NCBI GenBank assembly: GCA_963924555.1
Contig: OZ004596.1
Coordinates: forward strand, 558,001-622,000
Direction of reading: 5' to 3'
DNA from: Crambe crambe
Taxonomy: Eukaryota > Porifera > Demospongiae > Poecilosclerida > Crambeidae
Length of the DNA: 64,000 nucleotides
Position numbers and translations under genes: made by a program. Under the pieces are notes generated by a model. It did not search any database and was not told where the DNA came from. It worked only from the letters and a program-made list of their open reading frames with translations. Shown piece by piece: positions 1 to 44,676 of this stretch (its first letter is position 1; each line of letters begins with the position of its first letter).

Positions 1-3000
1 TGGATAACTGCTGGAGATATATTTATGTAACTTCTGCATGTAACTAGACTTTGAACTTCGACTGAGCATAACTTCATCAGGGATTATAAAACATCTCTTT
101 TCCAAACATTTCTTCATGTAAGTGCTCCAACACTTTCCCTTCTCTCCATAGATTTGGACCATATGCTTTTCAATTCCCAGGAGAGCAGATGGGCAGCCCA
201 CCACCACTACTAGGGACTTGGCACGTGTCAGGACAGTGTTGAAGACATATGGGTCACAGGGACTTTTGGTAGGATTTTTTGTATTGTCGCCAATGTTAAC
301 AAGTGGCTCTACAGTGCTCATGAATAAAGCTTGAAATTCCTGACCTGTACAATGACCATACTCAAAGTACAGCTAACACTATCAATTCTTTACCTTGAAT
401 ATCATAAGTTGTAAGCATACGAACTGATTTCAATTTTCGAAACCTCTCACGTGCCTTATGTCTCATACTAACAAGCTAAAAATTTCAGACCATTCTATGC
501 ATAAAAATATTTAAAAATGATATACCCTATACCTGAGTCCGTGAAGCTGACACCAAACATATTTGGTTAAATCTCTTTTACCCCAATCAGAGGGCCAAGA
601 ATGCACCGCAAATTTCATTGCTTGTTGCAGGACAAGTTGCTCTTCCATCTTGCTGTCTGTTGTAGGACCAAGGCTTGAGCAGACAAAGATTAATGGAAAC
701 ACAGCATCAGGGTGATGGTGAGCATTAAAAGGATGAGGTTTGATCTTATCCTCATAAAAGAGCTGGTTTGGGATTTTCATAATGTCTTCATGACAACGAT
801 AATTCGTATTGAGGGAGACCATATGGTTTAATGCTTGACCTCCACATTCGTTGTACAAGACTTGAAGTCTCTCCAGGAGTGAACACTTCAAACCATTCCC
901 ACGAGCTACTTCTCCCAACACAAGCAGTGATGGTCCAACCTACAGTGCAGCAAGTGAGCTGACTCTCAGGTCAATTGAACCTAGGTCTACACTCCAGAAT
1001 GATGGTTTTTAAATCGCCACTTACATAACTCAAATCTTAACTATAAGGAATACTTTACTAGCTCACTTCCTCACTGTCAAAATTTTGCCCTAGTAGTTAC
1101 CATAGTTACTTTAAACTTACTTGACATGAATCTCCTGCAAGTACTATCTTGGTATCAGGAGCAGCTAAACAGAGTGGTGCAATGTTTTCAGGTTCTCTGG
1201 TCTGAGAACCTTCATCCAACAGAATATGAGTGAAGAATCCAGCTTCATGTATACTTGAGAGTGATCGTGCAGTCGAAAATGTAGTTACCACTACAAAATA
1301 ATCGGGAGAGATATGCTGATATAAATGTACATATTTATCTCTCTTTTTGTAGTACCACTGAAACTGAGAATTTCTATTATAGTACCACTTTGAAGTTAGA
1401 CGAATAAGTTTAACTCTCCATGGATGATGTTCATGTTTAGTCATTGGACCAAAGTACTGCTCAATGTAATGATCAACAGAAGACTGATGATGAGCACAGA
1501 TGAGAACCCTCACAGGTTTATTTCTTCTTCTTCCTTGTTCCACAAGACAACGTGTAGTGATGGCCAGCAGTCGTGTCTTACCAGTACCAAAGGATCCATT
1601 CACAATAACTGGAGGTGACCTTGAGTCACTAGAAAGTATCGTGCTCAGAGCTTTACGCTGTTCATCTTGATCGACTCCTAAGTCACAAGGAATTCGAGCT
1701 AATAATTGATCCAAATCTCTATCAGAAATCACGGGAAAATAAAGGAAATCTTGAATTGATGGTAATATCCTAGCAATGATTTCAGGCTTAATCATTTCAA
1801 CAGCTTCTCTCAAACCTCTGAAATAATAATGTTTGACTTCAAACTTAGTGGCCAAATTCTTCACAAAAATTTGATTTTTTATAGAGAATAATCCAGAAAT
1901 TCTTCCTAAGAAAAAATTAGTCTTGTCATCATCCTTTAATGCAATGTACATTTTTTCATCACAGTGTTCATAATTCTCTCTTAGTATTTCAATTTCTACT
2001 TTATATTTCCCATCTCTTGAGACTATGAATGCTCCTTCACTAGACTGAGTGGCATATGCTATTTGGTCTGCACTGAGGTTTGAAAAATACCCATAACGCA
2101 CACGGCAGTCTCTTCTAGACCGTATCCACCCTGGCTTGAATTTGGATTGAAATAAATGTAAGTCACAATCCTGATCACACCTGGATATACAGAAGTTGAA
2201 TTTAATAAAGAAGTGTTGCCAATACCAAAAAAAATAAATAAAATAAAATAAAAAAAATTAATGTGAGGAGCAGTTTCCATGGATTTATAATAAATGTAAA
2301 AGCTGTGCTCCATGTAGTGACCTTTGATTGGCTCAGAGACCAGAGCTGCTTGAGCTGCTTTAGGTGGCTATTTACAGATACTAGCTCACTTGTAGCAGTA
2401 AACAAACACCCTTTGAGCATGCTTCAAGTAAAAACTTTGAATGGTACGAGCACAGACAGTTAAGTAGAAGACCCTGTCAGTCTCAGATCAGCAGAACTAA
2501 GAGCTTGCTACCATAAAAAGTTATTTCTGTGGAAAAAAAATGCTTTGACAGCCAATCCACAAAAGTTGAGCTCCTCTAGTTAAAGTAAAACACTATAGAT
2601 AGTAGTAGCTAACTAGTAACACATTCCTCAGTAATATGCCTGTAACATGGGGCAGCATGTGTGCACAGACTTAAACATACTTTATTCCGAGTTGATTGAT
2701 GTGTTCACTCTCTTCCCAGCTAGTAAGACTGCGAAATTTCTTCTTATAATTAGCTTTAGTGAGTTCAGCCTCAACATCTATCAGGGTCAAGTCTTCTCTT
2801 TTTAAATCAAACTCTGAATGCCATCTAGTTTGTTTTCGGGGATGTGGTTGGTAAACTAGATCAGCACCTCGCATCTGGATGTGTAATAGAATATTTGATT
2901 ACGATGGCTCCATCCAAATAATTAGCTGTGATTGCGACCAACTTATTCAAAGCATGATTCCTATCCTATCAATGATAAGCTAGTTAAATGCAACTCACCA

Positions 3001-3376
3001 CCATTCCTGCTCTCTGATCAATACCTAATAAAACATCATAGATAACAGCATACTTACCCCACACTGAGACTGATAACTTACTATGATACTTGTCCTTCAG
3101 TCTTTTGTTCCACTCTCTCTGTTCTGCCCGTCCATGAGCAAATGTACACTCATACCTTCTGCATGTCCCTTTCTTTGGATCACACATTGCAATATACTGC
3201 ACATTGTTTGGAAGGCGTTCTGGGATTGGTCTAATCCAGTCTGTGGTTTCCAGCCTGCTCCCTTCCCCATTCCACTGGACAATAACTTTATTTATACCGC
3301 TGTGGTTACACTGGACTGTAGGATCCGTTCGGAAAGCAAAAAAACACGAATGGCAAATCGACCAACTTCGACTCAT
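1..3376 (-). CDS. HELZ2-like: Gene A: HELZ2-like helicase, 5' part only (runs off the window), frameshifted
   Basis: First copy of the array; only the N-terminal part lies in the window. Exons inferred from splice sites: 3376-3082, 3024-2999, 2874-2681, 2180-1121, 939-533, 475-394, 344-<1. Exon 1 encodes a C-x2-C...C-x-H cluster and a CCCH finger ending in ECTFAHG. Exon 3 has the NYKKKF...WEE segment that precedes the helicase core in HELZ/MOV10-type proteins. Exon 4 carries Walker A (GSFGTGKT), DEGSQ and GDSCQ, and exon 7 carries motif VI (NTVLTRAK). It is nearly identical to the 5' half of gene B. Exon 5 is one base short compared with gene B: a run of three T instead of four near 562-564. 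This shifts the frame after DLTK and destroys the following TASRTQ motif. It is either a pseudogene or an assembly error; the other exons are open. Helicase B, RNB and helicase C lie off the left edge. Confidence 0.85.
2181..2680 (-). other. Gene A intron 3 (500 bp), no gene seen
   Basis: AT-rich, with an A/T-rich low-complexity stretch near 2227-2262. The same intron in gene B (14176-14664) has a pure A run of about 20 at 14211-14229. Nothing else recognised. Confidence 0.6.
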
Positions 3377-3644
3377 GGCTACCTTGTCTTCGACTGAAAC
3401 TAAACACAGGCGCTATAGGCGCTAGGCGGCGCCGCGCCAATAATAATTATAACTCCGCCCCTATAGGCCTAATGGATAATATTCCCCTATCTCCTAATTA
3501 GATACGCATGCGCAATAGGTTTGCATTCGGCCCGGTGCGATGGCACAGCCACAGACACCAAATATAATAAAAAATATTATGCTATCTTTTTATGCCATAT
3601 ATAAAACATTTATACACTAGCTATATAAAACAATTATACACTAG
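3377..3644 (-). promoter_or_regulatory. Gene A promoter / gene B 3' flank
   Basis: 268 bp between the gene B stop and the gene A start. It holds a GC-rich palindrome-like patch and a CCAAT box near 3426-3441, a CCGCCCC GC box near 3453, and TACGCATGCGCA at 3503-3514, one mismatch from the NRF1 consensus. No TATA box is evident upstream of the gene A start. I see no clear AATAAA for gene B. Confidence 0.5.
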
Positions 3645-6600
3645 CTACAGTGACCTATCTAATCTTTGGAAGTATCTATCATCAACAATGCACTCTCTCT
3701 CCTCATAGTGCTCAATTAAGGCATTCCATGTATCATCATATCTCAGTAGCATCTGATTGCCTGTATTTGAAAGAAAGGATAACATTTCACTCCTTCAACT
3801 TAGTACATGCTCACCAATGATGACAAGACCATACTTGCTCCTGGTAATGCCCACATTGATCTGATGCTTATCAGTGATGAAGCCAAGATGTTCATTCAAC
3901 CACTTGTGGTCTGCCTGCACATAGTGTTGATTCCTGATCTCTTCTTCACGTTGTGTGCGCACAGTAGACAGAATGACAATCCCATACTCATTGCCTTAAT
4001 TAGTGAGTATAATTAGTTAGTTTCCCCCCTTCTTGATTGATCCTTGTATATAGCTAACCTTGGCTCTCTGTAATGGATGCCACTTTCAGCTGTGACAGTG
4101 CTCTTGTCAATTTTTCTCTTATCTTCTCCTTTTGTGCAGAATATGGGGTCAGAACAGTGATTTCTTCAATAGGTATGTGACGTTTATGATGAAGAAACTC
4201 TGCAATCTCAACCTACATACAGCAAGCAGAGTATAATGATGACAGTGAGTATTAATTTGTTTTACTGACCGCTTTTTTGGCCTCACTCTCATTGAACTTT
4301 GAATCAATGCCAACATTGGCATCCTTACTCCCTGTTGGATGTTGTTCGTCCTCCCCCACCATGTTCACAAACATGATAGGACATTTCTCACCCTTAGGCC
4401 CGGGCCAAAACTTCTTCAATCTTGCTTCAGGGTTGTTACGTCTCTTAACAGAAACATCTGTTTCCAATTCTCCATCATAGAACTGCTTAGATGGAAAAGC
4501 ACAGATTTCTTCATGCTAAAATTGAAAGAAGCAATGAGTTAATAAATTAAAATGTTACAATGTTACTATTACCATTCTGTACTGGATCTTTAAGGTGAAA
4601 GTATATCCCTTCGTCTCCTCCTCTTCCTCCTCGTTCTTTGCCATATTTGCATACCTTTCAAACAGAGAAGTTGAGAGGCCACAGTTTTTGGCCGGACGAT
4701 AATCAATCACTGGTTGGAGTTGCATGTGGTCCCCAATGAGGACTGTGTGCTCACAGAGGCTGATGGGAACGATGGTCTCCGGTTCATAAGCCATCCCACA
4801 CTCATCAATGATGCACTGATGAGGAGAGAGTTGCTTTTGCACACGAACACCTGCCATTTCATTGCAGGTGCAGAAAATCACATCAAACTTTTCCTCCGAG
4901 AAACATTTCTGCTCGGCTTCACGTTTTGCTTTTCTGTACTTGTTGCATAGCATTCCATTGGCAATCTCACCTTTCTTGCTCATCGCTTCAATTGTTTCCT
5001 CCAATTCTCTGAGAGCTATAGATTCATTTCGATCAGACTGTCGTATCATGTGATGCAAGGCATACGGCTTTGCCCAGTCAGGGCAACGACTATCTTGCTC
5101 TCCTTGCTGGTGTTTCTTTTTGTGCTTCTTGATGTGTCTGGGAAGAGGATAGTCATAATCTTCTTTTTCGATCTTTCTGCTGTAAATCCTCAGGATCTTA
5201 AATTCAGGGTGCTGTCCTGTTTCCAGCAAGTGATGAAATTTTTCTGCAATAAAATAGAGATAATATAATCGTACCACTAATGAATATGAAGTAGCTGAAC
5301 AGCTTTACCGAAAACAACATCAACAGACTTGTTAGAAGGTCCACAGTAGAGCACACATCTGTGCTCTTTGAACATCTTTTTGTTCAGCTTCGCCAACACA
5401 TATGCTATGTGTGCTCCAGTCACACTCTTGCCTGTACCTTTAAGATAAAATGAAGTGATGAACTAGTATTACATACCCCATTGATAGAATAGTGCTTACC
5501 TGGTGGTCCCTGGATCAACTGGAATGGCTTATCAAGTGCCATTTCCATGGCTTTCTTCTGCCACTTGTTCAAGAACTTTGGATCATGGACCCCACTACTA
5601 TCACTACTCCATTCAGATATAGACTCAGTAAACTTGTCAGTCTTCATAACGCCTCGAGCTTCTTTACAATATCTCTCCTCGTTGGAGCCTAATATGAAAT
5701 CGCATTATAATTTTATGTACAAAATTAATAATGAATAAACCTTTAATTTTGGAGGGGCTCACAGCAACATTCTGGGATAGTGGGCTTGAATTCTTAGAAG
5801 ATGAAAGTGCCAATAGTCCTCCTAGCACTTTCCTGTCATGTGATTGGACATATATTATATAAGTAATAAAAAAGTAAGAACCAGCTTACATGTGGGAATG
5901 ACTCATTAGGATGATTTGTATCTCACAAGTGAACCTGTTAGATTCCAACATCTTTTTCACATCCTCTGATATTCGACAATTCATTTCTCCAATATGCTTC
6001 ATGGAAATGCTTATCTCTTTGTCATCGTCATCTCTACCATCAATATGATGGACTACAAAGTGGAAGACAGCTCTCACTGGGCAATGAGGGTCACACCCGT
6101 ACCTCACACACATAAGAGTACCAACGTTCACTTTAAAAAACTCGTAACACTGATCCTTGAAGCTCTTTGGAAATACTATCTTCACATCGTCACTTGGAAC
6201 ATAGTACGGTTCTTCCACGCATTCTTTTGGGATGACCAGTTTAGGCCATTGTAAGTGGACGTCACGAATGATCATGGGCTGACACTCCTTCACACTATTC
6301 TCGGCTGCCTCTGCAAGAAGTACTGCCTTCCATAGGTCAATATACTCTTCAATACTGGCATACACTGCTTTGGAAGCTTGCTTCAAGTTGGGATCAGAGA
6401 AGCACTCTGCTGGGTGGGAGTTGTGTTGGACACAGATACGTAGGAGAGGCGAAAGTTCCACCAATTGGATGGCAGGAGAGATCAGTGGCTCTCTCATGGA
6501 CCAGGTCAGCCAAACTTTGAGAACACTGGATGGTTTCAGAGATACTTCAATATTACAATCCAGAAAGGAATATGTCTTCTGTTGACTTATGAGGTCAGCT

Positions 6601-9600
6601 GAACAGGAGGAAGGCAAGGGAGGTACAGCTGGTAATAACTCCTTGATGTCGTCCATCCCTTCTTTAGTGGGATTTCTTACAAACCAAAGTGCCTTTGCCC
6701 AGTTGCTGGGAGAAAGCTCCACAACTAGACTCTGTTGAGAAGCCTTAAAATACTCCGTGTCTAGTGTTGAGTCACTTGAATTCAAACAACAAAAGGCTTT
6801 CATTGAAATATTACAACTGGAAGAATCATTGGAACCACTAACTATGGAGAGAGGAGATGATTCCAAAATTGATGCAGCGAAATCTCTACTTAAAGAGGTA
6901 ATCTGCAGATTCCACAAGCATAGCTGAGAATCATCTGCTGCTTTTTCTGGGATGAGATCATTAATTCTCAGTCTTCTTGCCCTCATGGGTAATTGCTTCA
7001 GCTCGAATTGTGGAAATGCCAGTTCCATTGTCCCCTTTAGAGACTTACAAATGAAACAGGAATATACCTCACTGGAGGACGTAAGATTAAAAGCAAGTTT
7101 TACTTTCTTGATTTCCTTCTCAAATTTGGAAGCATTGCTAACTTTTTTGTTGAGATAGGAACAAAGTTTCGTGTGTTCTTCATGCTTAAACTCTCTTCTT
7201 GGTCGCTTCCAGTTTTCCAATAGCATTCGTTGGACTTCGATATCTACGTATCGCCGCAAAGGGGAAGTGAAGTGTGTATACTCATCTAAGCAGAGGCTAT
7301 CATGGCGATAAGCAGACGCATCATTTCTATCCTTCTCTGTGCAACAATACAGAGCATGTGACAATACGGAGCGAAATTTAGAATTAACGGCAGCTAGTTG
7401 TGGATAAAACTGGTTGGAAGAGAGCAGGCTGGTGAGAAGAACTAGATTTTGATCAGATAAGGCTTTGTGGATCTTCTTAAGAGTGTCGATAGGAATCACG
7501 AAAGGAATGTCAGCAGAGTGTGTTTGGGCATCTGAAGTTTGCAAGTAGCGGGAGAGGTACAAGGAATGAAGAAGGACATTCTTGTTTTCATCCACGTGTT
7601 TTCTCGTCTCCTCAATATTGGGAGGTGGTTGTGTTCTCAGAATGGCAGCATCTGGGTAGGAGGAGTGGATATCTTTGGCTACTTCACTGTTGGCCCATAT
7701 CATAAGCTCTTCTACCAACAAGTGAGATTGCCAACAGAGAGATTCCTCATACTCATTGCTATCATACACATACACTGCATCTGATTTGAGCCTTCCACGA
7801 CGCATAAAATGGGAGAGATCATAAAGCAACTTAATCGCTTCCTGGAGAGAAAGGCTATTGTCTTGATTAAACTTCCTGATAGAATTGACACACTCTGTGG
7901 GAATTTTGCCATCCAGTAAGTCTTGAGCATCTTCATAAGTTAACTGGATGGCTGACTTGATTTGTGCTGCTTCAATTTGAATATTGCTCAATTCAAGTGA
8001 TGTAGGAGCTTGGTGGTCAATGGTGACTGTGCAGGTGACAGATATGACATCCCTTATCTTCCCAGGAGTCAGAGAGAGTTGGGATCTGGTTTCATATGGC
8101 AGCATGTGCATAATCTTACCTTTCTCTCCACCATAAACAGAAGTACCACTACTTCTAGCGATTTCATCGTCACACTTGATGATATGCTTAGCTGCATTCA
8201 CTATGTGCACACCTAATTCATATTTTTCAAGTTGATCTTCATCTGTGCTGATTCTGACCAAAGAAAGGGCATCATCAAGGTTCTGTGCTTCTTTGGGATC
8301 AATGGTAAAGGCCTGATCATAAAGCTTCAAATTTCTGTCTCTCTCTGCATCTTTAGCATCAACCTCACTTATGGGCTTATCTTCATTATAATCAACAGCA
8401 CACTGAAGCTTCAGCAGACGCTCCGCATTGAATTTAGTGTAACCTTTAGGATATGCACCCACTACAATCCCAAGGGGGTTTCGATACTTCTTCTCCCACC
8501 TCACCAAAGAGACGAGAAAGACCATGTTTCGGGCAACAGATAGAGGGATGACTTGTCTAATTTGGGGCAAAGCAATATCATCACTATCCAAATTGAGAGA
8601 CTTTCGATCGAATACGATTACATCAGTGCATTTTAAACCATTGTCAATCATATCCCTGATATTCATTCTGTTTTTTCTTTGTATTAAATCTCTTGATAAA
8701 CGAGGCAGATTTATCATCAATGGATCTTTGTTATCAATGGGATGAAATATGATAGGGTTGGCATGCGATACTCTGCATAGTAACTGGACTTCACTGTCTC
8801 GTTCAGCAGTCAAAATACGCCCATAGCACTTATCCTGAGGGTTGTTAGGAAATATGCCAACAGTCACTCGATCACCATCAAACGCTCCTTTTCTATTGCC
8901 AATGCGCCGTATCTTCACTATTTTCTTACTACTGTCCATTGGAATGGCTTTTGCTTTATGTATGGACTCAACCTCCAGTATGCACTCATAAGAATCAGTG
9001 TAAGCGATGTTATCCTGTGAATTTTCATCATCTTCATTTTGTTGATTTTCCTCCTTTAGATTCCATGAAAGATGGGCCCCAGGAGTACTCATCAAGGTGA
9101 CCTTTGTGTCTCGGTATTCAGGCATATCTTCAAACACCTTCTTGTATGCTTTGATTATGCTGTCCAATCCTTTGGACTTTCCTGTACTACCAATTTTGTT
9201 TGACTCTGAATATATACGTTCCAATAATACTTTAAAATCAGAACATACTTCAAGTGATTTTCTCAGTCGTTCAGAATAGGTGAATGTCTTGCACTCGATG
9301 CACTGTTTGATGTAAGGTGTCCAGCATTCTGCACCTTCACCATACTTCTGGAGCATGTGCTTCTCTATCTTGAGTAGAAGGAATGGGTTGCCAACAACAA
9401 CTACCAGTGATTGAGATCTGGTGATGGCAGTGTTGAAGATATAGCGATCAGATACGCTCTTGGTTTGGTTGATCGATTCTCCATCCTTAGAAGTTGCTTC
9501 AGAAGTGGAGATAAACATGGCCCTAAACTCTCTACCTATTAAAGATTATTATGAAAATAATAACTATTCCTATTGTAACGAATCTGGACTTACCTTGAAT

Positions 9601-12600
9601 GTTATCTGCCACGAGTATTTCAATACCTTTTAAATTCTTCTTCTCAATTTTTTTTTTGAAAATGGTACACTGTTATGCAAGAAAATAATATAATATGTGA
9701 TGATTTCATAAAAAGCTTGAGATATACCTGATCAACAGAGGGAGACATGATACAAACTTTGCTTCGTTCTTCTTTTCCCCAGTGTTTCGGCCACTTGGTG
9801 AAATACTTCTGTACTTCTTTTAATAAGACCTCAGCTTCCACTTCATTGGTCCCAGTTGTTGGCTTGTCACTGTCTGAAATATCAGAGCACACAAAATTGA
9901 GGGGGAAAGGTGAGAGATGGTGGGCTTCGTTATCTTTCACTCGACACAGGAGTGTAGACTGATAGTAAAGACTGGAGGGTAGCATCAGAATGCCATTGTG
10001 ACAACGATAGTTGGTAAGCAAAGTAACTGAATGTGTACAAGATAGAGGCATCTCGCTATAAAGGTCATGTAATCTCTCCAAGAGAGATATTCCCAAGCCA
10101 TCATTTTGAGCTTTGTCTCCTAGCACCAATGAACGAGGACCAACCTGTATAATATAAGATAGTCCATAAAGTTAACACATAGAGTGGTTAAATTGAAAGT
10201 ACCTGACAATGATCACCAGCAATAACAATTCGTGTATACTTCCCAGCAAAGCAGAGAGGTCCAATGGTTTCAGGTTCTCTAGTTTGAGCTCCCTCATCAA
10301 TCAAAATATCAGTAAAGAAATATTTTCTTGGTATCTTACGTAGAAGAGAAGGTGCAATACCTAGAGTGGTGATGACTAATCGCTCATTTTGTAACTGGTC
10401 GATTTCACACCTCTTTTTATAATACTTTTTATATTTAGGGTAATTTGCAGGGTAATAAGGTGTATCAAGAGTCACACGAATGAAAGAGATAGTGTTTTCA
10501 TAACTTTGCATTTTACCAAAGTAATCCACAAAAGTATCAGCTGATGCTTGATGATGAGCACAGATTAAGACTCGACTATTCTTTTTTCTCAATATGTCGT
10601 AAGCAGCTCTGGTAAGTAAGCGTGTCTTACCTGTACCAAAAGGTCCAGCGATAAGCAATGGAGTGCTGGCATGAGGGTGATTCAAAATTGTATTCAAAGC
10701 TTTTAATTGTATAAAATCCAATTCCAAGAAAGGATAAAGTGGCTTGGGACTAGAGTAGTCTTGATCTGATTCAATAAGACTATTCTCACAAGGAACTAAC
10801 CTCTCCACTACTGACTTTGGAAGTCTATTTATGAAGGAGTGAAGCATTTGAAAATAGGAATACTTTAATTCAAATTCTACTTGTCCCTGAAACTTGAATG
10901 CTGTTCTCTGAAACTTCAAGCATGATATCTTCAACTTTTGAGTTTCACTCTCAGTGAAACCAACTGCAATGGCACTGAAGTTGGCACTGCGTGGAACATG
11001 AGCACGGACGTTGTGCGCATGCACAAAGGATCCATCATCTAGAATAATGAATGATCCTTGACTTGCTTGCTTAGCATTACTCAGACTCTCCCCATCATCA
11101 GACGTGATATATCCAAAACGCACTATTTCCTCATCTTCATATTGAATAGCAGGAAAAAATTTGCGAGGATAAACATGGATATCATAAACACCATTATACC
11201 TATACAATAAAAAATGATGATGACTTTGTCTAACAGATGATATCATAGTGTGTAGCTACATACCTTTCTGCTAACTGTCGAGCATGTTCTTCTTCTTCAT
11301 GGCAGAGTAAGTGGTGAAACTTCTCTTTGTAGTTGTCCACTGTTAAATTTTCTTTCAGAATCCTATCATTCAATAGATGCTTGTACTTTTCATATTCAGC
11401 AGAATACTTTACAGGAACTGGTTGGTGCACACGTAAGTTCTCTTTTCTCTTCATTGTATTTTCTTTTTCTCTGATCATTTTAACTTCTTTCTTTGTTCTT
11501 TTAGAAGCATCTTCTAATGACTATACCAATTATAATTATTTGGTGAACATATAAACTTGGATTATAACTTACAGGGTAATCATGGGATGTTTTACTCTCA
11601 GTAATTTTGTTTCGTGACTTTACCCATCCTTTTTTATCACCAATGGAGGTGCTTTGTGCTAGTGATATAATACACTCAATGAAGTCATACGTTTAGTAGA
11701 CATATTATATGACTCACATTGTGTTCTTTCAGCAGGAGGTATCATAACAGCAGCTGCACTATGCTCACCAGAAGAAGCAGTTGACATTCTTTGAGTAGGT
11801 GGCCTCATAACAGCAGCTGCATTATGCTCACCAGAAGAAGCAGTTGCCATTCTGTTCTGGGACTTCAATCTACTGCATGGATAATAGAGTAGTAACTACA
11901 GGTTTCTATAATGAGTTTAAAAATAAACTTACTTTGGGATAGTCACTTCTGTCAAACTTCTCGCTGGATAACTGCTGGAGATATGTTTATGTAACTCCTG
12001 CATGTAATTAGACTTTGAACTTCGACTGAGCATAACTTCATCAGGGATTATAAAACATCCCTTTTCCAAACATTTCTTCATGTAAGTGCTCCAACACTTT
12101 CCCTTCTCTCCATAGATTTGGACCATATGCTTTTCAATTCCCAGGAGAGCAGATGGGCAGCCCACCACCACTACTAGGGACTTGGCACGTGTCAGGACAG
12201 TGTTGAAGACATATGGGTCACAGGGACTTTTGGTAGGATTTTTTGTATTGTCGCCAATGTTAACAAGTGGCTCTACAGTGCTCATGAATAAAGCTTGAAA
12301 TTCCTGACCTGTACAATGACCATACTCAAAGTACAGCTAACACTATCAATTCTTTACCTTGAATATCATAAGTTGTAAGCATACGAACTGATTTCAATTT
12401 TCGAAACCTCTCACGTGCCGTATGTCTCATACTAACAAGCTAAAAATTTCAGACCATTCTACATAAATTATGCATAAAAATATTTTAAAATGATATACCC
12501 TATACCTGAGTCCGTGAAGCTGACACCAAACATATTTTGGTTAAATCTCTTTTACCCCAATCAGAGGGCCAAGAATGCACCGCAAATTTCATTGCTTGTT

Positions 12601-15363
12601 GCAGGACAAGTTGCTCTTCCATCTTGCTGTCTGTTGTAGGACCAAGGCTTGAGCAGACAAAGATTAATGGAAACACAGCATCAGGGTGATGGTGAGCATT
12701 AGGACGAGGTTTGATCTTTTTCTCATAAAAGAGCTGGTTTGGGATTTTCATAATGTCTTCATGACAACGATAATTTGTATTGAGGGAGACCATATGTTTT
12801 AATGCTTGACCACCACATTTCTTATACAAGACTTGGAGCCTCTCTAGGAGAGAATACTTCAAACCATTCTCACGAGCTTCTTCTCCCAATACAAGCAGTG
12901 ATGGTCCAACCTACAAAATTAGCTACTATGATTCAGTGCAGCAAGTGCATGAGCTCATTTTCTCAGGTCAATTCCAGAATGCCTCAGGCATACTACAGGA
13001 TGGCTTTAAATTGCCACTTACATAACTCAAATCTTAGCTAAGGAATACTTTACTAGCTCACTTGCTCACTGTCAAAATTTTGCCCTAGTAGCTACCATAG
13101 TTACTTTAAACTTACTTGACATGAATCTCCTGCAAGTACTATCTTGGTATCAGGAGCGGCTAAACAGAGTGGTGCAATGTTTTCAGGTTCTCTGGTCTGA
13201 GAACCTTCATCCAACAGAATGTGAGTGAAGAAACCAGCATCATGTATACTTGAGAGTGATCGTGCAGTCGAAAATGTAGTTACCACTACGAAATAATCGG
13301 GAGAGATATGCTGATATAAATGTACATATTTATCTCTCTTTTTGTAGTACCACTGAAACTGAGAATTTCTATTATAGTACCACTTTGAAGTTAGACGAAT
13401 AAGTTTAACTCTCCATGGATGATGTTCATGTTTAGTCATTGGACCAAAGTACTGCTCAATGTAATGATCAACAGAAGACTGATGATGAGCACAGATGAGA
13501 ACCCTCACAGGTTTATTTCTTCTTCTTCCTTGTTCTACAAGACAACGTGTAGTGATGGCCAGCAGTCGTGTCTTACCAGTACCAAAAGATCCATTCACAA
13601 TAACTGGAGGTGACTTTGAGTCACTAGAAAGAATCGTGCTCAGAGCTTTACGCTGTTCATCTTGATCAATTCCTAAGCCACAAGGAATTCGAAGTAATAA
13701 TCGATCCAAATCTCTATCAGAAATCACAGGAAAATACAGGAAATCTTGAATTGATGGTAATATCCTAGCAATGATTTCAGGCTTAATCATTGCAACAGCT
13801 TCTCTCAAACCTCTGAAATAATAATGTTTGACTTCAAACTTAGTGGCCAAATTCTTCACAAAAATTTGATTTTTTATAGAGAATAATCCAGAAATTCTTC
13901 CTAAGAAAAAATTAGTCTTGTCATCATCCTTTAATGCAATGTACATTTTTTCATCACAGTGTTCATAATTCTCTCTTAGTATTTCAATTTCTACTTTATA
14001 TTTCCCATCTCTTGAGACTATGAATGCTCCTTCACTAGACTGAGTGGCATATGCTATTTGGTCTGCACTGAGGTTTGAAAAATACCCATAACGCATATGG
14101 CAGTCATTTCGAGATCGTATCCAGGATGGCTTTAAATTTGACTGAAATAAATGCAAGTCACAATCCCGATTACACCTGGATATGCAGAAGTTGAATTTTA
14201 ATAACTACCAAAAAAAAAAAAAAAAAAAAGCAGTTTCCATGGATTTATAATATAGCTATGCAAAAGCTGTGCTCCATGTAGAAAATCAACTTGACCTTTG
14301 ATTGGCTCAGAGACCAGAGCTCAGTAAGCTGCTTGAGCTGCTTAGGTGGCTATTTATAATATAAATCTGCTACTAGCTAGTTAGTAGCTCACTTGGAGCA
14401 GTAAACATCCTTTGAGCATGCTTCAAGTAAAAACTTTGAATGGTACAAGCACAGACAGTTAAGTAGAAGACCCTGTCAGTATCAGATCAGCAGAACCTAG
14501 AAGCTGGCTACCATAAAAAATTTCTGTGAAAAAAAAATTTTTTTGACAGCCAATCCACAAAAGTTGAGCTCCTCTAAATTAAAACACTAACACATTCCTC
14601 TAGTGATTCCTCTAGTGATATGCCTGTAACATGGGGCAGCATGTGTGCACAGACTTAAACATACTTTATTCCGAGTTGATTGATGTGTTCGCTCTCTTCC
14701 CAGCTAGTAAGACTGCGAAATTTCTTCTTATAATTAGCTTTAGTGAGTTCAGCCTCAACATCTATCAGGGTCAAGTCTTCTCTTTTTAAATCAAACTCTG
14801 AATGCCATCTAGTTTGTTTTCGGGGATGTGGTTGGTAAACTAGATCAGCACCTCGCATCTGGATGTGTAATAGAATATTTGATTACGATGGCTCCATCCA
14901 AATAATTAGCTGTGATTGCGACCAACTTATTCAAAGCATGATTCCTATCCTATCAGTGATAAGCTAGTTAAATGCAACTCACCATCATTCCTGCTCTCTG
15001 ATCAATACCTAATAAAATATCATAGATAACAGCATACTTACCCCACACTGAGATACTTGATAACTTACTATGATACTTGTCCTTCAGTCTTTTGTTCCAC
15101 TCTCTCTGTTCTGCCCGTCCATGAGCAAATGTACACTCATACCTTCTGCATGTCCCTTTCTTTGGATCACACATTGCAATATACTGCACATTGATTGGAA
15201 GGCGTTCTGGGATTGGTCTAATCCAGTCTGTGGTTTCCAGCCTGCTCCCTTCCCCATTCCACTGGACAATAACTTTATTTATACCGCTGTGGTTACACTG
15301 GACTGTAGGATCCGTTCGGAAAGCAAAAAAACACGAATGGCAAATCGACCAACTTCGACTCAT
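3645..15363 (-). CDS. HELZ2-like: Gene B: HELZ2-like triple-helicase RNB exoribonuclease, complete
   Basis: Exons: 15363-15069, 15008-14983, 14858-14665, 14175-13116, 12910-12506, 12439-12358, 12308-11933, 11872-11718, 11658-11573, 11520-11264, 11199-10203, 10144-9728, 9669-9594, 9535-5890, 5832-5741, 5688-5500, 5437-5309, 5243-4573, 4515-4270, 4212-4059, 3994-3815, 3760-3645. These total 9,849 nt, 3,282 aa, with all phases agreeing. Domains by rough residue: zinc module 1-98; helicase A 172-800 (GSFGTGKT near 367, DEGSQ, NYRCH, LTRAK); helicase B 930-1520 (GPFGTGKT near 1162, DEGAQ, AITRS); OB-like region and RNB about 1600-2160 (TIDPKEAQNLDDA, HFTSPLRRY); UPF1-like helicase C 2720-3282 (GPPGTGKS, DECG, GDHMQLQPV, QYRM, TPYSAQ, GITRSKYG). 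In vertebrates HELZ2 is an interferon-induced RNB 3'-5' exoribonuclease and nuclear-receptor cofactor; a role in RNA decay here is inferred. Odd features: a 26-nt microexon, an A10 run in exon 13, and Asn at one RNB metal-ligand position. The start is the first ATG before the zinc module. Confidence 0.93.
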
Positions 15364-18300
15364 GGCTACCTTGTCTTCGACTGAAACTAAACACAGGCGC
15401 TATAGGCGCTAGGCGGCGCCGCGCCCATAATAATTATAACTCCGCCCCTATAGGCCTAATGGATAATAATTCCCCTATCTCCTAATTAGATACGCATGCG
15501 CAATAGGTTTGTGATCGTGTGCATTCGGCCCGGTGCGATGGCACAGCTAGCCACAGACACCAAATATAATAAAAAATATTATGCTATCTTTTTATGCCAT
15601 ATATAAAACATTTATACACTAGCTACAGTGACCTATCTAATCTTTGGAAGTATCTATCATTATCAACAATGCACTCTCTCTCCTCATAGTGCTCAATTAA
15701 GGCATTCCATGTATCATCATATCTCAGTAGCATCTGATTGCCTGTATTTGAAAGAAAGGATAACATTTCACTCCTTCAACTTAGTACATGCTCACCAATG
15801 ATGACAAGACCATACTTGCTCCTGGTAATGCCCACATTGATCTGATGCTTATCAGTGATGAAGCCAAGATGCTCACTCAGCCACTTGTGATCTGCCTGCA
15901 CATAGTGTGGATTCCTGATCTCTTCTTCGGATAGCGAGCGCACAGTAGACAGAATGACAATCCCATACTCATTCCCTTAAATAGTGAGTATAATTAGTTA
16001 GTTTTTCCCCTTCTTGATTGATCCTTGTATATAGCTAACCTTGGCTCTCTGTAATGGACGCCACTTTCAGCTGTGACAGTGCTCTCGTCAATTTTTCTCT
16101 GATCTTCTTCTTCTGTGCAGAATATGGGGTCAGAACAGTGATTTCTTCAATAGGCACATGGCGTTTATGATGAAGAAACTCTGCAATCTCAACCTACATA
16201 CGAGAGCAGAGTATAATGATGACAGTGAGTATTAATTTGGTTTACTGACCGCTTTTTTGGCCTCTCTCTCGTTGAACTTTGAATCAATGCCAACATTGGC
16301 ATCTTTACTCCCTGTTGGATGTTGTCCTTCCTCCCCCACCACATTCACAAACATGATAGGACATTTCTCACCCTTAGGCCCGGGCCAAAACTTCTTCAAT
16401 CTTCCTTCAGGGTTGTTACGTCTCTTAACAGAAACATCTGTTTCCAATTCTCCATAATAGAACTGCTTAGATGGAAAAGCACAGATTTCTTCATGCTAAA
16501 ATTGAAAGAAGCAATAAGTTAACAGATTAAAATGTTACAATGTTACTATTACCATTCTGTACTGGGTCTTTAAGGTGAAAGTATATCCCTTCGTCTCCTC
16601 CTCTTCCTTCTCGTTCTTTGCCATATTTGCATACCTTTCAAACAGAGAAGTTGAGAGGCCACAGTTTTTGGCCGGACGATAATCAATCACAGGTTGGAGT
16701 TGCATGTGGTCCCCAATGAGGACTGTGTGCTCACAGAGGCTGATGGGAACGATGGTCTCCGGTTCATAAGCCATCCCACACTCATCAATGATGCACTGAT
16801 GAGGGGACAGTTGCTTTTGCACACGAACACCTGCCATTTCATTGCAGGTGCAGAAAATCACATCAAACTTTTCCTCTGAGAAAAATTTCTGCTCGGCTTC
16901 ATGTTTTGCTTTTCTGTACTTGTTGCATAGCATTCCATTGGCAATCTCACCTTTCTTGCTCATCGCTTCAATTGTTTCCTCCAATTCTCTGAGAGCTATA
17001 GATTCATTTCGATCAGACTGTCGTATCATGTGATGCAAGGAATATGGCTTTGCCCAGTCAGGGCAACGACTATCATCTAATTCTTGCTCTCTTCGCTGGT
17101 GCTTCTTTTTGTGCTTCTTGATGTGTCTGGGAAGAGGATAGTCATAATCTTCTTTTTCGATCTTTCTGCTGTAAATCCTCAGGATCTTAAATTCAGGGTG
17201 CCTTCCTGTTTTCAGCAAGTGATGAAATTTTTCTGCAACAAAATAGAGACATAATCGTACCACTAATGAATATGAAGTAGCTAAACAGCTTTACCGAAAA
17301 CAACATCAACAGACTTGTTAGAAGGTCCACAGTAGAGCACACATCTGTGCTCTTTGAACATCTTTTTGTTCAGCTTCGCCAACACATATGCTATGTGTGC
17401 TCCAGTCACACTCTTGCCTGTACCTTTAGTGATAAAGTGAAGTGATTAACTAGTATTACATTCCATATTGATAGTATGATGCCTTACCTGGTGGTCCCTG
17501 GATCAACTGGAATGGCTTATCAAGTGCCATTTCCATGGCTTCCTTCTGCCATTTGTTCAAAAATTTTGGATCATGGACCCCACTTCTATCACTACTCCAT
17601 TCAGATATAGATTCAGCAAACTTGTCAGTCTTCATAATGCCTCGAGCTTCTTTACAATATCTCTCCTCGTTGGAGCCTAATATGAAATAAAATAAAATCG
17701 GATTATAATTTTATGTACAATATTAATAATGAATAAACCTTTAATTTTGGAGGGGCTCATGGCAACATTCTGGGATAGTGAGCTTGAATTCTTAGGAGAT
17801 GAAAGTGCCAATAGTCCTCCTAGCACCTTCCTGTCATGTGATTGGACATATATTATATAATATTATATAAAGAACCAGCTTACATGTGGGAATGGCTCAT
17901 TAGGATGATTTGTATCTCACAAGTAAACCTGTTAGATTCCAACATCTTTTTCACATCCTCTGATATTCGACAATTCATTTCTCCAATATGCTTCATGGAA
18001 ATGCTCATCTCTTTGTCATTGTCATCTCTATCATCAATATGATGGACTACAAAGTGGAAGACAGCTCTCACTGGGCAATGAGGGTCACACCCGTACCTCA
18101 CACACACAAGAGTACCAATGTTCACTTTAAAAAACTCGTAACATTGATCCTTGAAGCTCTTTGGAAATACTATCTTCACATTGTCACTTGGAACATAGTA
18201 CGGTTCTTCCACACATTCTTTTGGGATGACCAGTTTAGGCCATTGTAAGTGGATGTCACGAATGATCATGGGCTGACACTCCTTCACACTATTCTCGGCT

Positions 18301-21300
18301 GCCTCTGCAAGAAGTACTGCCTTCCATAGGTCAATGTACTCTTCGATACTGGCATACACTGCTTTGGAAGCTTGCTTCAAGTTAGGATCAGAGAAGCACT
18401 CTGCTGGGTGGGAGTTGTGTTGGACACAGATACGTAGGAGAGGTGAAAGTTCCACCAACTGGATGGCAGGAGAGATCAGTGGCTCTCTCATGGACCAGGT
18501 CAGCCAAACCTTGAGAACACTGGAAGGTTCCAGAGATACTTCAATATTACAATCCAGAAAGGAATACGTCTTCTGTTGATTTATGAGGTCAGTTGAACAG
18601 GAGGAAGGCAAGGGAGGTACAGCTGGTAATAACTCCTTGATGTTGTCCATCCCTTCTTTAGTGGGATTTCTTACAAACTGAAGTGCCTTTGCCCAGTTGT
18701 TGGGAGAAAGCTCCACAACTAGACTCTGTTGAGAAGCCTTGAAATACTCTGTGTCTAGTGTTGAGTCACTTGAATTCAAACAACAAAAGGCTTTCATTGA
18801 AATATTAAAACTGGAAGAATCATTAGAACCACTAACTATGGAGAGAGGAGATGATTCCAAAATTGATGCAGCGAGATCTCTACTTAAAGAGGTAATCTGC
18901 AGATTCCACAAGTACAGCTGAGAGTCATCTGCTGCTTTTTCTGGGATGAGATCATTAATTCTCAGTCTTCTTGCCCTCATGGGCAATTGCTTCAGCTCGA
19001 ATTGTGGAAATGCCAGTTCCATTGTCCCCTTTAGAGACTTACAAATGAAACAGGAGTATACCTCACTGGAGGACGCAAGACTAAAAGCAAGCTTTACTCT
19101 CTTGATTTCCTGCTCAAATTTGGAAGCATTGCTAACTTTTTTGTTGAGATAGGAACGAAGTTTCGTGTGCTCTTCATGCTTAAACTCTCTTCTTGGTTGC
19201 TTCCATTTTTCCAATAGCATTCGTTGGACTTCGATATCTACATATCGCCGCAAAGGGGAAGTGAAGTGTGTATACTCATCTAAGCAGAGGCTATCATGGC
19301 GATAAGCAGACGCATCATTTCTATCTTTCTCTGTGCAACAATACAGAGCACGTGACAATACAGAGCGAAATTTGGAACTAATGGCAGCTAGCTGTGGATA
19401 AAACTGGTCGGAAGAGAGCAGGCTGGTGAGAAGAACTAGATTTCGATCAGATAAGGCTTTGTAGATCTTCTTAAGAGTGTCGATAGGAATCACAAAAGGA
19501 ATGTCAGCAGAGTGTATTTGGGCATCCGATGTTTGCAAGTAGCGGGAGAGGTACAAGGAATGAAGAAGGACATCCTCGTTTTCATCCACATGTTTTCTCG
19601 TCTCCTCGATATTGGGAGGTGGTTGTGTCCTCAGAATGGCAGCATCTGGGTAGGATGAGTGGATATCTCTGGCTACTTCACTGTTGGCCCATATCATAAG
19701 CTCTTCTACCAACAAGTGAGATTGCCAACAGAGAGACTCCTCATACTCATTACTATCATACACATACGCTGCATCTGATTTGAGCCTTTCACGACGCATA
19801 AAATGGGAGAGATCATAAAGCAACTTAATCGCTTCCTGGAGAGAAAGGCTATTGTCTTGATTAAACCTTCTGATAGAATTGACACACTCTGTGGGAATTT
19901 TGCCATCCAGTAAGTCTTGAGCATCTTCATAAGTTAACTGGATGGCTGACTTGATTTGTGCTGCTTCAATTTGAATATTGCTCAACTCAAGTGATGTAGG
20001 AGCTTGGCGGTCAATTGTGACTGTGCAGGTGACAGATATGACATCCCTAATCTTCCCAGGAGTCAGAGAGAGTTGGGATCTGGTTTCATATGGCAGCATG
20101 TGCATAATCTTACCTTTCTCTCCACCATAAACAGAAATACCACTACTTCTAGCAATTTCATCGTCACACTTGATAATATGCTTAGCTGCATTCACTATGT
20201 GCACACCTAATTCATATTTTTCAAGTTGATCTTCATCTGTGCTGATTCTGACCAAAGAAAGGGCATCATCAAGGTTCTGTGCTTCTTTGGGGTCAATGGT
20301 AAAGGCCTGATCATAAAGCCTCAAATTTCTGTCTCTCTCTGCATCTTTAGCATTGACCTCACTTATGGGCTCATCTTCATTATAATCAACAGCACACTGA
20401 AGCTTCAGCAGACGCTCTGCATTGAATTGAGTGTAACCTTTAGGGTACGCACCTACAACAATCCCAAGGGGGTTTCGATACTTCTTCTCCCACCTCACCA
20501 GAGAGACGAGAAAGACCATGTTTCGGGCAACAGATAGAGGGATGACTTGTCTAATTTGGGGCAAAGTAATATCATCACTATCCAAATTGAGAGACTTTCG
20601 ATCGAATACGATTACGTCAGTGCATTTCAAACCATTGCCAATCATATCTCTGATATTCATTCTGTTTTTTCTTTGTATCAAATTTCTTGATAAACGAGGC
20701 AGATTTATCATCAATGGATTTTTGTTATCAATGGGATAAAATATGATAGGGTTGGCATGCGATACTCTGCATAGTAACTGGACTTCACTGTCTCGTTCAG
20801 CAGTCAAAATGCGCCCATAGCACTTATCCTGAGGATTGTCAGGAAATATACCCACAGTCACTCGATCACCATTGAATGCTCCTTTTCTATTGCCAATTTC
20901 CTGTATCTTCACTATTCTCTTACTACTGTCCATTGGAATGGCTTTTGCTTCTCGTATGGACTCAACCTCCAGTATGCACTCATAAGAATCAGTGTAAACG
21001 ATGTTATCCTGTGAATTTTCTTCATCTTCATTTTGATGATTTTCCTCCTTTAGATTCCATGAAAGATGGGCCCCAGGAGTACTCATCAAGGTGACCTTTG
21101 TTTTTTGGTATTCAGGCATATCTTCAAATACCTTCTTGTATGCTTTGATTATGCTGTCCAATCCTTTGGACTTTCCTGTACTGCCAATTTTGTTTGACTC
21201 AGAGTATATATGTTCCAATAATACTTTAAAATCAGAACATACTTCAAGCGATTTTCTCAGTTGTTCAGAATAGGTGAATGTCTTACACTCGATGCACTGT

Positions 21301-23880
21301 TTGATGTAAGGTGTCCAGCATTCTGCACCTTCACCATACTTCTGGAGCATGTGCTTCTCTATCTTAAGTAGAAGGAATGGGTTGCCAACAACAACCACCA
21401 GTGATTGAGATCTGGTGATAGCAGTGTTGAAGATATAGCGATCAGATACACTCTTGGTTTGGTTGATAGATTCTCCATCCTTAGAAGTTGCTTCAAAAGT
21501 GGAGATAAATATTGCCCTGAACTCTCTTCCTATGATATGATAGATTATTATGAAATTAGTCCTACTATGAGGAACCTGGATGTACCTTGTATGTCATAAG
21601 CTGGGAGTACTTTAACATCATTCATTAAATTCTTCATCTTCTTGCTTTTCATTTTATTTTTGAAAATGGAACACTGTTGTGCAAGAAAAAATATATTAAT
21701 GCATGATTGCATGCGTAGGTATACTCTGTTATACCTGATCAGCAGAGGGAGACATGATACAAACTTTGCTTCGTTCTTCTTTTCCCCAGTGTTTTGGCCA
21801 CTTGGTGAAATACTTCAGTACTTCATCTAATAAGATTTCTGCTTCTACTTCATTGGTCCCAGCTGTTGGCCTGTCACTGTCTGAAATATCAGAACACACA
21901 AAATTGAGGGGGAAAGGTGAGAGATGGTGAGCTTCGTTATCTTTCACTCGACACTGGAGTGTAGACTGATAGTAAAGACTGGAGGGTAGCATCAGAATGC
22001 CATTATGGCAACGATAGTTGGTGAGCAAAGTAACTGAATGTGTACAAGATAGAGGCATCTCACTATAAAGGTCATGTAATCTCTCCAAGAGGGATATTCC
22101 CAAGCCATTATTTTGAGCTTTGTCTCCTAGCACTAATAAACGAGGACCAACCTGCATAACAGTCACATATACATACAACATCATAAAATAGTCCAAGTTA
22201 AATAAAGTACCTGACAATGATCACCAGCAATAACAATCCGTGTATACTTCCCAGCAAAGCAGAGAGGTCCAACAGTTTCAGGTTCTCTAGTTTGAGCTCC
22301 CTCATCAATCAGAATATCGGAGAAGAAGTACTTTGGTGTCTTATGTAGAAGAGAAGGTGCAGTACTTAGAGTGGTGATGACTAATCGCTCATTTTGTAAC
22401 CACTTGATTTCATGCTTCTTTTTGTAATACTTTTTATATGTAGGATTTGCAGGGTGATAAGAGCCACCAGGAGTTACACGAATGAAAGAGATAGGCCATT
22501 GCTTATTTTCATCACTTTTCATTTTACCAAAATATTCCACAAAAGTATCAACTGATGCTTGATGATGAGCACAGATTAAGACTCGACTATTCCTTTTTCT
22601 CAATATGTCGTAAGCAGCTCTGGCAAGTAAGCGTGTCTTACCTGTACCAAAAGGTCCAGCGATAAGCAATGGAGTGCTGGCATGAGGGTGATTCAAAATT
22701 GTATTCAAAGCTTTTAATTGTATAAAATCCAATTCCAAGAAAGGATAAAGTGGTTTGGAACTAGAGCAGCCTTGATTTGGTTCAATAAGACTATTCTCAC
22801 AAGGAACTAACCTCTCCACTACTAACTTTGGAAGTCTATTTATGAAGGAGTGAAGCATTTGAAAATAGGAATACTTTAATTCAAATTCTACTCGACTTTG
22901 AAGGTTGAATGCTGTTCTCTGAAACTTCATGCATGATATCTTCAACTTTTGAGATTCACTCTCAGTGAAACCAACTGTAATGGCACTAAAGTTGGCACTG
23001 TATGGAACATAAGCACGGACATTGTGTGCATGCACAAAGGATCCATCATCTAGAATTATGAATGATCCTTGACTTGCTTGCTTAGCATTACTCAAATTCT
23101 CCCCATTATCAGACGTGATATATCCAAAACGCACATACTTTTCCTCATCTTCATATTGAATACCATCAGGAACAAAGTTGCGAGGATAAATATAAATATC
23201 ATAAACACCATTATACCTGTACAAGAAAAAAATGACTATCTAATGGATGATATAGTATGTAGCTACATACCTTTCTGCTAACTGTCGAGCATGTTCTTCT
23301 TCCTCATGGCAAAGTAAGTGGTGAAACTTTTCTTTGTAGTTGTCCACTGTTAAATTTTCTTTCAGAATCCTATCATTCAATAGATTCTTGTAGTTTTCAT
23401 ATTCAGCAGAATACTTTACAGGAACTGGTTGGTGTACACGTAAGATCTCTTTTCTCTTCATTGTATTTTCTTTTTCTCTGATCATTTTAACTTCTTTCTT
23501 TGTTTTTTTAGAAGCATCTTCTAATGACTATCCAGTAATTCCAATTATGATTATTATTTTGGTGAACATATAAACTTGGATCATAACTTACAGGGTAATC
23601 ATAGGATGTACTCTCAGCAATTTTGTTTCTTGACTTTACCCATCCTTTTTTATCACCAATGGAGGTACTTTGTGCTAGTGATATAATACACTCAATGAAG
23701 TCATAAGTTTAGTAGACATATTATATGACTCACATTGTGTTCTTTCAGCAGGAGGTCTCATAACAGCAGCTGCATTATGTTTACCAGAAGCAGTTGATAT
23801 TCTTTGAGTAGGTGGTTTCATAACAGCTGCATTATGCTCACCAGAAGAGGTAGTTGGCATTCTGCTCTGTGATGGCTGTG
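11965..23880. repeat. About 12-kb tandem duplication, copy 2 (gene B 5' part + gene C 3' part)
   Basis: Partner of 1-11880. Similarity to copy 1 includes the promoter region, the microexon, the 3,646-nt RNB exon (same length in B and C) and the Ser/Thr linker exons. Differences are scattered substitutions and small indels, so the duplication is recent but not brand new. Confidence 0.8.
15364..15622 (-). promoter_or_regulatory. Gene B promoter / gene C 3' flank
   Basis: Near-identical to the gene A promoter. It keeps the GC-rich patch, the CCGCCCC box and the NRF1-like TACGCATGCGCA at 15491-15502. The CCAAT pentamer of gene A reads CCCAT here. Confidence 0.5.
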
Positions 23881-24720
23881 TTGCAGTTGAAGCTGTAGTT
23901 TTTCTATTTGCTGCTGCTGGTGATGATCTGGGTAGATATTAAGAGTTTCTTTCCTCACACTGGTGGTTCTGTATAAATGAATATTATTACTAATTTACTT
24001 CGAGATAGAAGTAGATCCTGTTGAAGGTTTCTTTGCTGCAGATACTCTCTTCAGTGTAGGTGAAGCTGATGCTACAGATGAAATAGTAGAATTTTTTTGA
24101 GCTGACATTTTAGTTGATGCCCTGCTCTGTGATGCTGTTGCTGATGAACCCGATGCTTCAGTTGATACCCCATTCTGTGACCTCCTGTTCTGTGTTGGCG
24201 ATGTTACTTGATTTTGAGCTGACATTCCAGTAGATACCTTATCATGGGACCTCAATCCACTGCATAGAGAATAGAGTTATAATTGTAGGATAAGAAATTT
24301 ACTATCAACTTACTTTTGGACAGTCTTGGGTGTTACTTTTGTTGGTGGAATTTTTTGATAACTGCTGCAGATACGTTTACATAACTCCTGCATGTAATTA
24401 GACTTTGAACTTTGACTGGGCATAACTTTATCAGGGATTATAAAAGATCCCTTTTCCAAACATTTCTTCATGTAAGTGCTCCAACAATTTCCCTTCTCTC
24501 CATAGATTTGGATCATGTGATTTTCAATATCCAGTAAAGCAAATGGACTTCCCACCACCACTACTAATGACTTGGCACGTGTCAGGACAGTGTTGAAGAC
24601 ATATGGATCACAGGGACTTTTGGTAGGATTGGTTGTATTGCCAGTTTCATCAATCGGCTCTGTAGTGCTCATGAATAATGCTTGAAACTCCTGCCCTACA
24701 ACAATAAGATAATAGTTATC

Positions 24721-24773
<53 letters not shown>

Positions 24774-30053: not shown

Positions 30054-30689
30054 AGGTTATTCACATGAAGGGCCAGGTGTCCTTAGCTAGCTAGCTAGCT
30101 AGCTCGATATACGTATACATAGTAACGCCCCCTAGCCCCCGAAAATTCCCCCAATAATAATTATCGTTACATCATAATAAAGAAAACAAAGAAGTACATC
30201 AACTAGATAGCTAGCTCTTTCTTGGAAACTGATGAGCATCCACAATACATTTCTTCTCCTTATAATGGTCCAGTAAGTGCTTCCATGTATCATCATATCT
30301 CAGTAGCATTTGGTTACCTGCACTCCATCACATAATACTCATAGATTATAAATAGCAAAAAAGTATCTCACCAATGATGACAAGACCATACTTGCTCCTG
30401 GTAATGCCCACATTGATTTGATGCTTATCAGTGATGAAGCCAAGATGCTCCAATAACCAGCTTCTATCAGCCTGCACATGGAGTGGATTCCTTATCTCGT
30501 CACATGGTAGCGTGCACACAGTGGACAGAATGACAATCCCATACTCATCACCTTTATGATATCATAGTATTATTCATAATACATATTGTATTTTGTGCAC
30601 TGACAGACCCTGACTCTCGTTGATGGATGCCACCTTCAGTTTCCTGATATCTCTAGTTGCTTGACTTTCTGTTTGAATTTTGTCCTTCT
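30054..30689 (-). pseudogene. Duplicated 3'-terminal exons of gene D (truncated copy)
   Basis: Tandem copy of 30690-31334. It holds a full copy of the last exon (30317-30211, stop kept), a full copy of the motif VI exon (30551-30372) and only the 3' part of the preceding exon (30689-30609). With no upstream coding part it cannot be a gene by itself. Its splice sites are intact, so it might act as alternative terminal exons of gene D. It fills the space up to 42 bp before the gene C start codon. Confidence 0.75.
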
Positions 30690-44037: not shown

Positions 44038-44676
44038 AGGTTATTCACCAGGTACTAGGTGACCTTAGCCAGCTCGATATACATAGTAACGCCCCCTATT
44101 AGTAGAATTCCCCCCGAAAATTCCCCCAATAATAATTATCGTTACATCATAATAAAGAAAACAAAGAAGTACATCAACTAGATAGCTAGCTAGCTCTTTC
44201 TTGGAAACTGATGAGCATCCACAATACATTTTTTCTCCTTATAATGGTCCAGTAAGTGCTTCCATGTATCATCATATTCAGTAGCATTTGGTTACCTGCA
44301 CTCCATCACTTAATACTCATAGCTAGATTATAATAATAAAAAAGTATCTCACCAATGATGACAAGACCATACTTGCTCCTGGTAATGCCCACATTGATTT
44401 GATGCTTATGCTTATCAGTGATGAAGCCAAGATGCTCCAATAACCAGCTTCTATCAGCCTGCACATGGAGTGGATTCCTTATCTCGTCACATGGTAGCGT
44501 GCACACAGTGGACAGAATGACAATCCCATACTCATCACCTTTATGATATCATAGTATTATTCATAATACATATTGTATTTTGTGCACTGACAGACCCTGA
44601 CTCTCGTTGATGGATGCCACCTTCAGTTTCCTGATATCTCTAGTTGCTTGACTTTCTGTTTGAATTTTGTCCTTCT
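44038..44676 (-). pseudogene. Duplicated 3'-terminal exons of gene E (truncated, decayed copy)
   Basis: Tandem copy of about 44677-45321, matching the remnant behind gene D. The last-exon copy (44295-44190) is one base short, which shifts the frame, and the motif VI exon copy has a 6-nt insertion giving DKHKHQIN. This copy is more decayed than the one at 30054-30689. Confidence 0.75.

Follow-up and report, generated by a model that had tools for sequence, protein, structure and literature searches.

The closest described relative of the genes considered here is human HELZ2, which is stimulated by interferon and inhibits LINE-1 in human cells (PMC9839780). In that study the wild-type protein degraded RNA in the 3'-5' direction, and the authors mutated three aspartates (Asp) at the same spacing as in the genes below. 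Restriction of LINE-1 was weakened when the Walker motif was mutated in helicase 2 or in both helicases together; for helicase 1 this held in one of the two cell lines used, and mutating the nuclease had minor effects (PMC9839780). Here we analysed a stretch of 64,000 nucleotides (the window) from the sponge Crambe crambe (contig OZ004596.1, our C19, positions 558001-622000; genome of 143 Mb in 119 contigs). Clustered HELZ2-like genes occupy the minus strand of the left 57 kb of the window: B, C, D and E, with the front part of gene A to their left. Gene B and the related copies probably encode HELZ2-family proteins that have one superfamily 1 (SF1) helicase more than described for HELZ2 and that may act in RNA remodelling and decay. 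The layout itself we hold to be very probable: a zinc-finger (ZnF)-like N-terminus, a first helicase (helA), a linker, a second helicase (helB), an OB/RNB region and a third helicase (helC).

Gene models came from homology-guided prediction, gene by gene, and from an aligner that fits proteins to DNA across introns. Gene B begins with an ATG at 15363 and ends with a stop at 3645; its coding sequence of 9849 nt (stop included) has no internal stop, and its 21 introns, of 49-489 nt, are all GT-AG. In window coordinates, and in amino acids (aa) of the protein, its features are:

3645..15363, minus strand: gene B, 22 exons, 3282 aa, with ZnF-like N-terminus, helA, linker, helB, OB/RNB and helC (rebuilt gene model)
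15112..15342, minus strand: zinc-finger-like Cys/His motifs, aa 8-84 (by eye; no Pfam family)
12022..14735, minus strand: helA module including its NYK segment, aa 149-783 (Pfam, motifs)
11335..12021, minus strand: linker between helA and helB, carrying a 63-bp in-frame repeat (gene model, repeat scan)
9252..11334, minus strand: helB module including its NYK segment, aa 956-1570 (Pfam, motifs)
5642..9251, minus strand: OB_HELZ2 and RNB region, aa 1571-2737, with the catalytic motif at aa 1888-1897 (Pfam, motifs)
3684..5641, minus strand: helC, UPF1-type, aa 2738-3270 (Pfam, sequence match to UPF1)

Scanned exon by exon, gene B matches the Pfam families AAA_11 and AAA_12 in helA (4.4e-18 and 2.5e-9), in helB (2.7e-18 and 8.8e-11) and in helC (1.7e-22 and 8.5e-10), and RNB (PF00773, 1.8e-46) between helB and helC; the last helA exon matches no family when scanned alone. 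The first exons of B and E have no Pfam match either, despite Cys/His motifs visible by eye. A segment of the form NYKxKF...EE precedes helA (aa 149) and helB (aa 956) of gene B, and was looked for and not found before helC. The Walker A lysine (Lys) and the Asp-Glu (DE) pair lie at K373 and D494-E495 in helA, K1170 and D1280-E1281 in helB, and K2788 and D2974-E2975 in helC. An initial annotation of this DNA had read gene B as one frame over 22 exons, with two tandem HELZ-type modules, each with its own NYK segment, followed by RNB and a UPF1-type helicase. Our rebuilt model has the same coordinates and exon count, the Pfam and motif positions agree, and the AAA_11/AAA_12 and RNB domain search which that annotation proposed has found all four domains. 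Its remark that all three modules keep Lys and the DE pair holds for B and likewise for C, D and E, and these intact motifs suggest three working ATPases in each of the four proteins. We take the NYK...EE segment ahead of the RecA domains to resemble that of SF1 helicases of the HELZ and MOV10 type, which, to our knowledge, carry a single helicase and lack RNB.

The RNB and OB_HELZ2 models, together with the order of the domains, support kinship with HELZ2. A genome search with OB_HELZ2 (PF25049) reached 15 loci, 11 of them over the cut-off: two on contig C3 and 13 copies on C19, of which seven (including A) lie at 524-615 kb and six at 4.08-4.28 Mb. In gene B the match lies upstream of RNB in the large exon, with 30.4 bits in the genome search and 25.4 in the whole-exon scan (cut-off 29.3). 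Eight other RNB loci (on C6, on C16 and at C19:717 kb), among 23 RNB matches in the genome, were left unmatched by the model, so the assignment to HELZ2 is specific. Two helicases flanking RNB, the order which the initial annotation gave for HELZ2, is indeed that described for the human protein (PMC9839780), and helB-RNB-helC fits it; this part of gene B is the HELZ2 core and helA the extra. Human HELZ2 has three catalytic Asp at 0, +8 and +9, as here, and spacings from Lys to Asp to Lys that come, from residue numbers, to 796/834, against 718/900 aa in helB-RNB-helC of gene B (PMC9839780). In contrast to human HELZ2, the sponge copies carry helA, which has an NYK segment of its own, ahead of this core; they are clustered, and at least one shows exchange between copies. 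Since helA is a third helicase in the C19 copies, they are a variant of HELZ2 rather than a protein with only two helicases. HELZ2 as a kind is already known; neither the third helicase nor the exchange was found described in the open-licence literature, which is a weak test.

UPF1 matches helC of gene B at 3.2e-15, helB at 3.7e-9 and helA weakly, at 0.008. The predicted structure of the helA core (predicted local distance difference test, pLDDT, 78.9) has UPF1, ZNFX1, Sen1 and SETX as its closest folds in the PDB; these differ in having one helicase core per matched chain and no RNB. DIS3L, DIS3L2 and DIS3 share the RNB domain, of which they are the best relatives of solved structure (from 6.9e-22), and differ in that the second of four RNB Asp is asparagine (Asn) in the sponge copies. 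We know of no helicases in the three DIS3 proteins.

Whether helA and helB belong to the same gene turns on the junction between them. The initial annotation had argued that the layout is no gene-model accident, and it does recur in C, D and E (in D except for the join of exons 1 and 2, where the aligner placed one frameshift). The features of these genes that bear on the question, and the neighbouring gene A, are:

53015..53707, minus strand: last helA exon of gene E, about 135 aa coding past the helicase, with 51-bp in-frame repeats (aligner, repeat scan)
52856..52955, minus strand: first helB exon of gene E, which includes the NYK segment and is separated by 60 nt from the helA exon (aligner)
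15623..30012, minus strand: gene C, same layout, alignment without frameshift or stop; exons from exon 1 to 27630 provisional (aligner)
30882..43999, minus strand: gene D, same layout; join of exons 1 and 2 provisional (aligner)
44869..56622, minus strand: gene E, same layout with a more divergent helA, start codon a few codons before 56622; exons from exon 1 to 55774 provisional (aligner)
1..3412, minus strand: gene A, a broken copy, here with its front part; the rest extends leftwards out of the window, ending in RNB (aligner)

Two neighbouring genes, one coding for ZnF-helA and the other for a separate HELZ2 (helB-RNB-helC), could have been merged only on paper. Both halves occur by themselves: ZnF-helA without helB lies at C19:2.178 Mb (L029 61-8137; C19:2174561-2182637), and a relative on C3, V1, has helB-RNB-helC, that is two helicases in its readable part, with no helA found in the 6 kb searched upstream. 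Genes of the cluster also lie close together, with about 260 nt from the stop of C to the start of B, and therefore a short distance between helA and helB proves little by itself. Gene E nevertheless provides the cleanest proof of a single gene: its helA exon continues as coding linker and reaches helB over a 60-nt intron, and because coding runs right up to this intron there is no room for a gene boundary. Linker exons also connect helA and helB in B, C, D, T_527, T_540 and U1-U6, a count of 11 copies that includes the broken U3 and leaves out A and, for its different linker, E. The second linker exon measures 86, 83, 86, 86, 83, 74, 56, 56, 89, 77 and 41 nt in these copies, and wherever two of these lengths are unequal (50 pairs) the difference is divisible by 3; for four nearby introns the counts are 16/54, 14/45, 8/43 and 15/53. 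As the aligner favours frame, this pattern is support for a single frame and not independent proof. The claim that the layout is no accident thus stands on the junction intron of E, on the linker exons common to the copies and on ratios of nonsynonymous to synonymous divergence (dN/dS) below 1 in all pairs computed, and we consider two merged genes very improbable. Tandem repeats that lie within coding linkers or N-terminal exons are built of 63-, 51-, 54- and 27-bp units; outside coding the units are 24, 3, 17, 17 and 41 bp, plus one overlapping 21-bp row. Polyadenylation signals were uninformative as a boundary test: AATAAA and ATTAAA do not mark gene ends in the window, and a linker lacking them is therefore of no help.

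We computed dN/dS module by module in chosen pairs, 13 where the module includes V1 and 12 where it does not, saturated pairs giving no value; neither these ratios nor the motif table include the broken A and U3. The ratios were 0.21-0.59 for helA, 0.12-0.58 for helB, 0.17-0.37 for RNB, 0.17-0.60 for helC (its two highest values coming from pairs whose synonymous divergence, dS, does not exceed 0.02) and 0.41-0.98 for the linker. Walker A Lys and the DE pair are present in 11 of 11 copies in both helA and helB, and in helC the DE pair is again complete and Lys is found in ten of 11, with glutamate (Glu) in U2. From helA to helC the alignment is free of frameshifts and stops in ten of the 13 copies (B, C, E, T_527, T_540, U1, U2, U4, U5 and U6), and gene D is likewise open except at its exon-1 join.

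Several observations weigh against a family of intact three-helicase enzymes. The fold matches of helA have low template modelling scores (TM-scores), 0.33-0.47 over eight SF1B hits, top and below, and the RNB structure model is poor (pLDDT 38.7). Two of the 13 copies, A and U3, are broken; the alignment of gene A, which extends to C19:553983, contains frameshifts and a stop and ends inside RNB, without helC. No ZnF exon aligned in three of the ten open copies (U2, U4 and U6). U2, besides its Glu in helC, needs a 1-nt exon inside RNB and misses the TSPLRRY motif; given that exon and the missing ZnF exon, it may be decaying too. U4 has lost one catalytic Asp. The Asn in place of the second of four RNB Asp is found in 12 of 12 rows (in gene B the 8298-8300 region, aa 1888-1897), with the other three Asp present in V1 and in nine of 11 C19 copies, not in U2 and U4. 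This Asn need not mean lost activity, because the Asp mutated in human HELZ2 have the same spacing and the wild-type protein degrades RNA 3'-5' (PMC9839780). Finally, shorter transcript forms may end between helA and helB.

Where did helA come from? For the trees we left out the broken A and U3, helC of U2 (altered Walker A) and helC of V1, and used the gene D protein without its first exon; a second tree drops the long rows, namely C1, C12 and eight helC rows. In both trees helA forms one clade (100/99), in which the lone ZnF-helA of C19:2.178 Mb is nested. The clade of helB and V1 has 94/93 without the long rows and 48/0 with them. C12 joins helA at 99/96 in the first tree, which we do not trust because of its long branch. 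A recent tandem duplication of helB within the gene, leaving helA redundant with it, might be read from four intron positions and phases that helA and helB have in common. The same introns, however, are found in a single-helicase gene on C12, so they are inherited, and we rejected them as proof of a tandem duplication. With the helA clade apart from helB and V1, and only about 35% identity between the helA and helB cores of gene B, a recent duplicate is hardly credible. The separate clades and the introns shared with the C12 gene instead point to helA and helB being old paralogues; the source of helA could be either a duplication inside a HELZ2 gene or a fusion with another helicase gene.

Another reading is that the third helicase is an old, widespread, unwritten feature of invertebrate HELZ2, and its layout ordinary. 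In this lineage the layout is old, since it is common to B and E, whose modules have come close to synonymous saturation or passed it (RNB dS 2.48). HELZ2 genes are also named in a paper on a sponge transcriptome, in a passage that does not give their architecture (PMC11229196). Against this stand the C3 relative, with only two helicases in its readable part, and the failure to find a three-helicase HELZ2 in the open-licence literature. The layout may thus be common and have gone unnoted, a serious contender to which we give somewhat less than an even chance.

Gene D is a hybrid, with a C-like front half, whose linker is nearest to B, on an E-like core. The change takes place within a single exon:

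38860..38900, minus strand: switch point of gene D, inside the exon with the helB NYK segment (DNA comparison: like C and B before, like E after)

At the DNA level, four long pieces of D up to 38860 match C with 80-85% identity, and after 38900 D is 96.8% identical to E across 8677 nt. By module, its nearest relatives are C for helA (89%), B for the linker (94%) and E for helB, RNB and helC (97-99%). Synonymous divergence agrees: between C and D it is 0.26 in helA but 2.22 in RNB, and between D and E 0.06 in RNB but saturated in helA. Other copies, U1 for instance (C for RNB and U4 for helC, both 95%), also switch their nearest neighbour by module; U5 and U6 are mutually nearest in all modules. 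Under a strict cut for exchange (one module at 90% or more and another at 75% or less, the linker aside), D-E is the sole pair to pass of 55, and wide shuffling among copies is therefore only suggested, D alone being clear.

In the mechanism we propose, whose chances we put at about even, the protein would bind selected RNAs, its helicases would move along them, strip or unwind them, and the RNB domain would degrade them 3'-5'. The ZnF-helA front half may be a further ATP-driven RNA-binding module, possibly setting target choice; such a role fits, because the front half is what differs between D and E. We infer RNA binding, ATPase and nuclease activity, division of labour and any role in defence. 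A bolder reading, which we think unlikely, is that the clusters are a diversifying defence repertoire, in which a ZnF-helA recognition module recombines with helB-RNB-helC cores of tandem and distant copies. If true, one animal would possess many RNA-degrading machines differing in their front halves. The 13 clustered copies with their third helicase amount to a natural experiment on the task of each motor, for which the helB-RNB-helC relative on C3 is a built-in comparison; D and E, with a near-identical core and a different front half, offer a handle on whether the front helicase sets target choice.

Some further features of these loci may be mentioned. In D and E, the last helC exons are present twice, the extra set lying just behind the first (window 30211-30684 and 44306-44671), and a helC intron holds a 17-bp minisatellite (31451-31794 in D, 45438-45766 in E) that is absent at that score in B and C. 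The open frame of the lone ZnF-helA at C19:2174561-2182637 continues into a region resembling reverse transcriptase (RVT_1, 26.9 bits; cut-off 29.6). V2, the second locus on C3, shows RNB-helC. On C12 (L031, 3.739-3.814 Mb), genes with a single HELZ-type helicase occur in both orientations, those at 3.739-3.762 Mb on the plus strand and those at 3.792-3.814 Mb on the minus strand, resembling an inverted duplication. Another expanded helicase family is represented by 20 AAA_12 matches in long single frames (1099-2469 aa) on C9, C18, C21, C1 and C6, most of them on C18 (11) and C6 (4). At the right flank of the window, plus-strand frames at 57161-57565 and 63434-63754 presumably resemble ribosomal protein eL30 and an SH2 domain, respectively.

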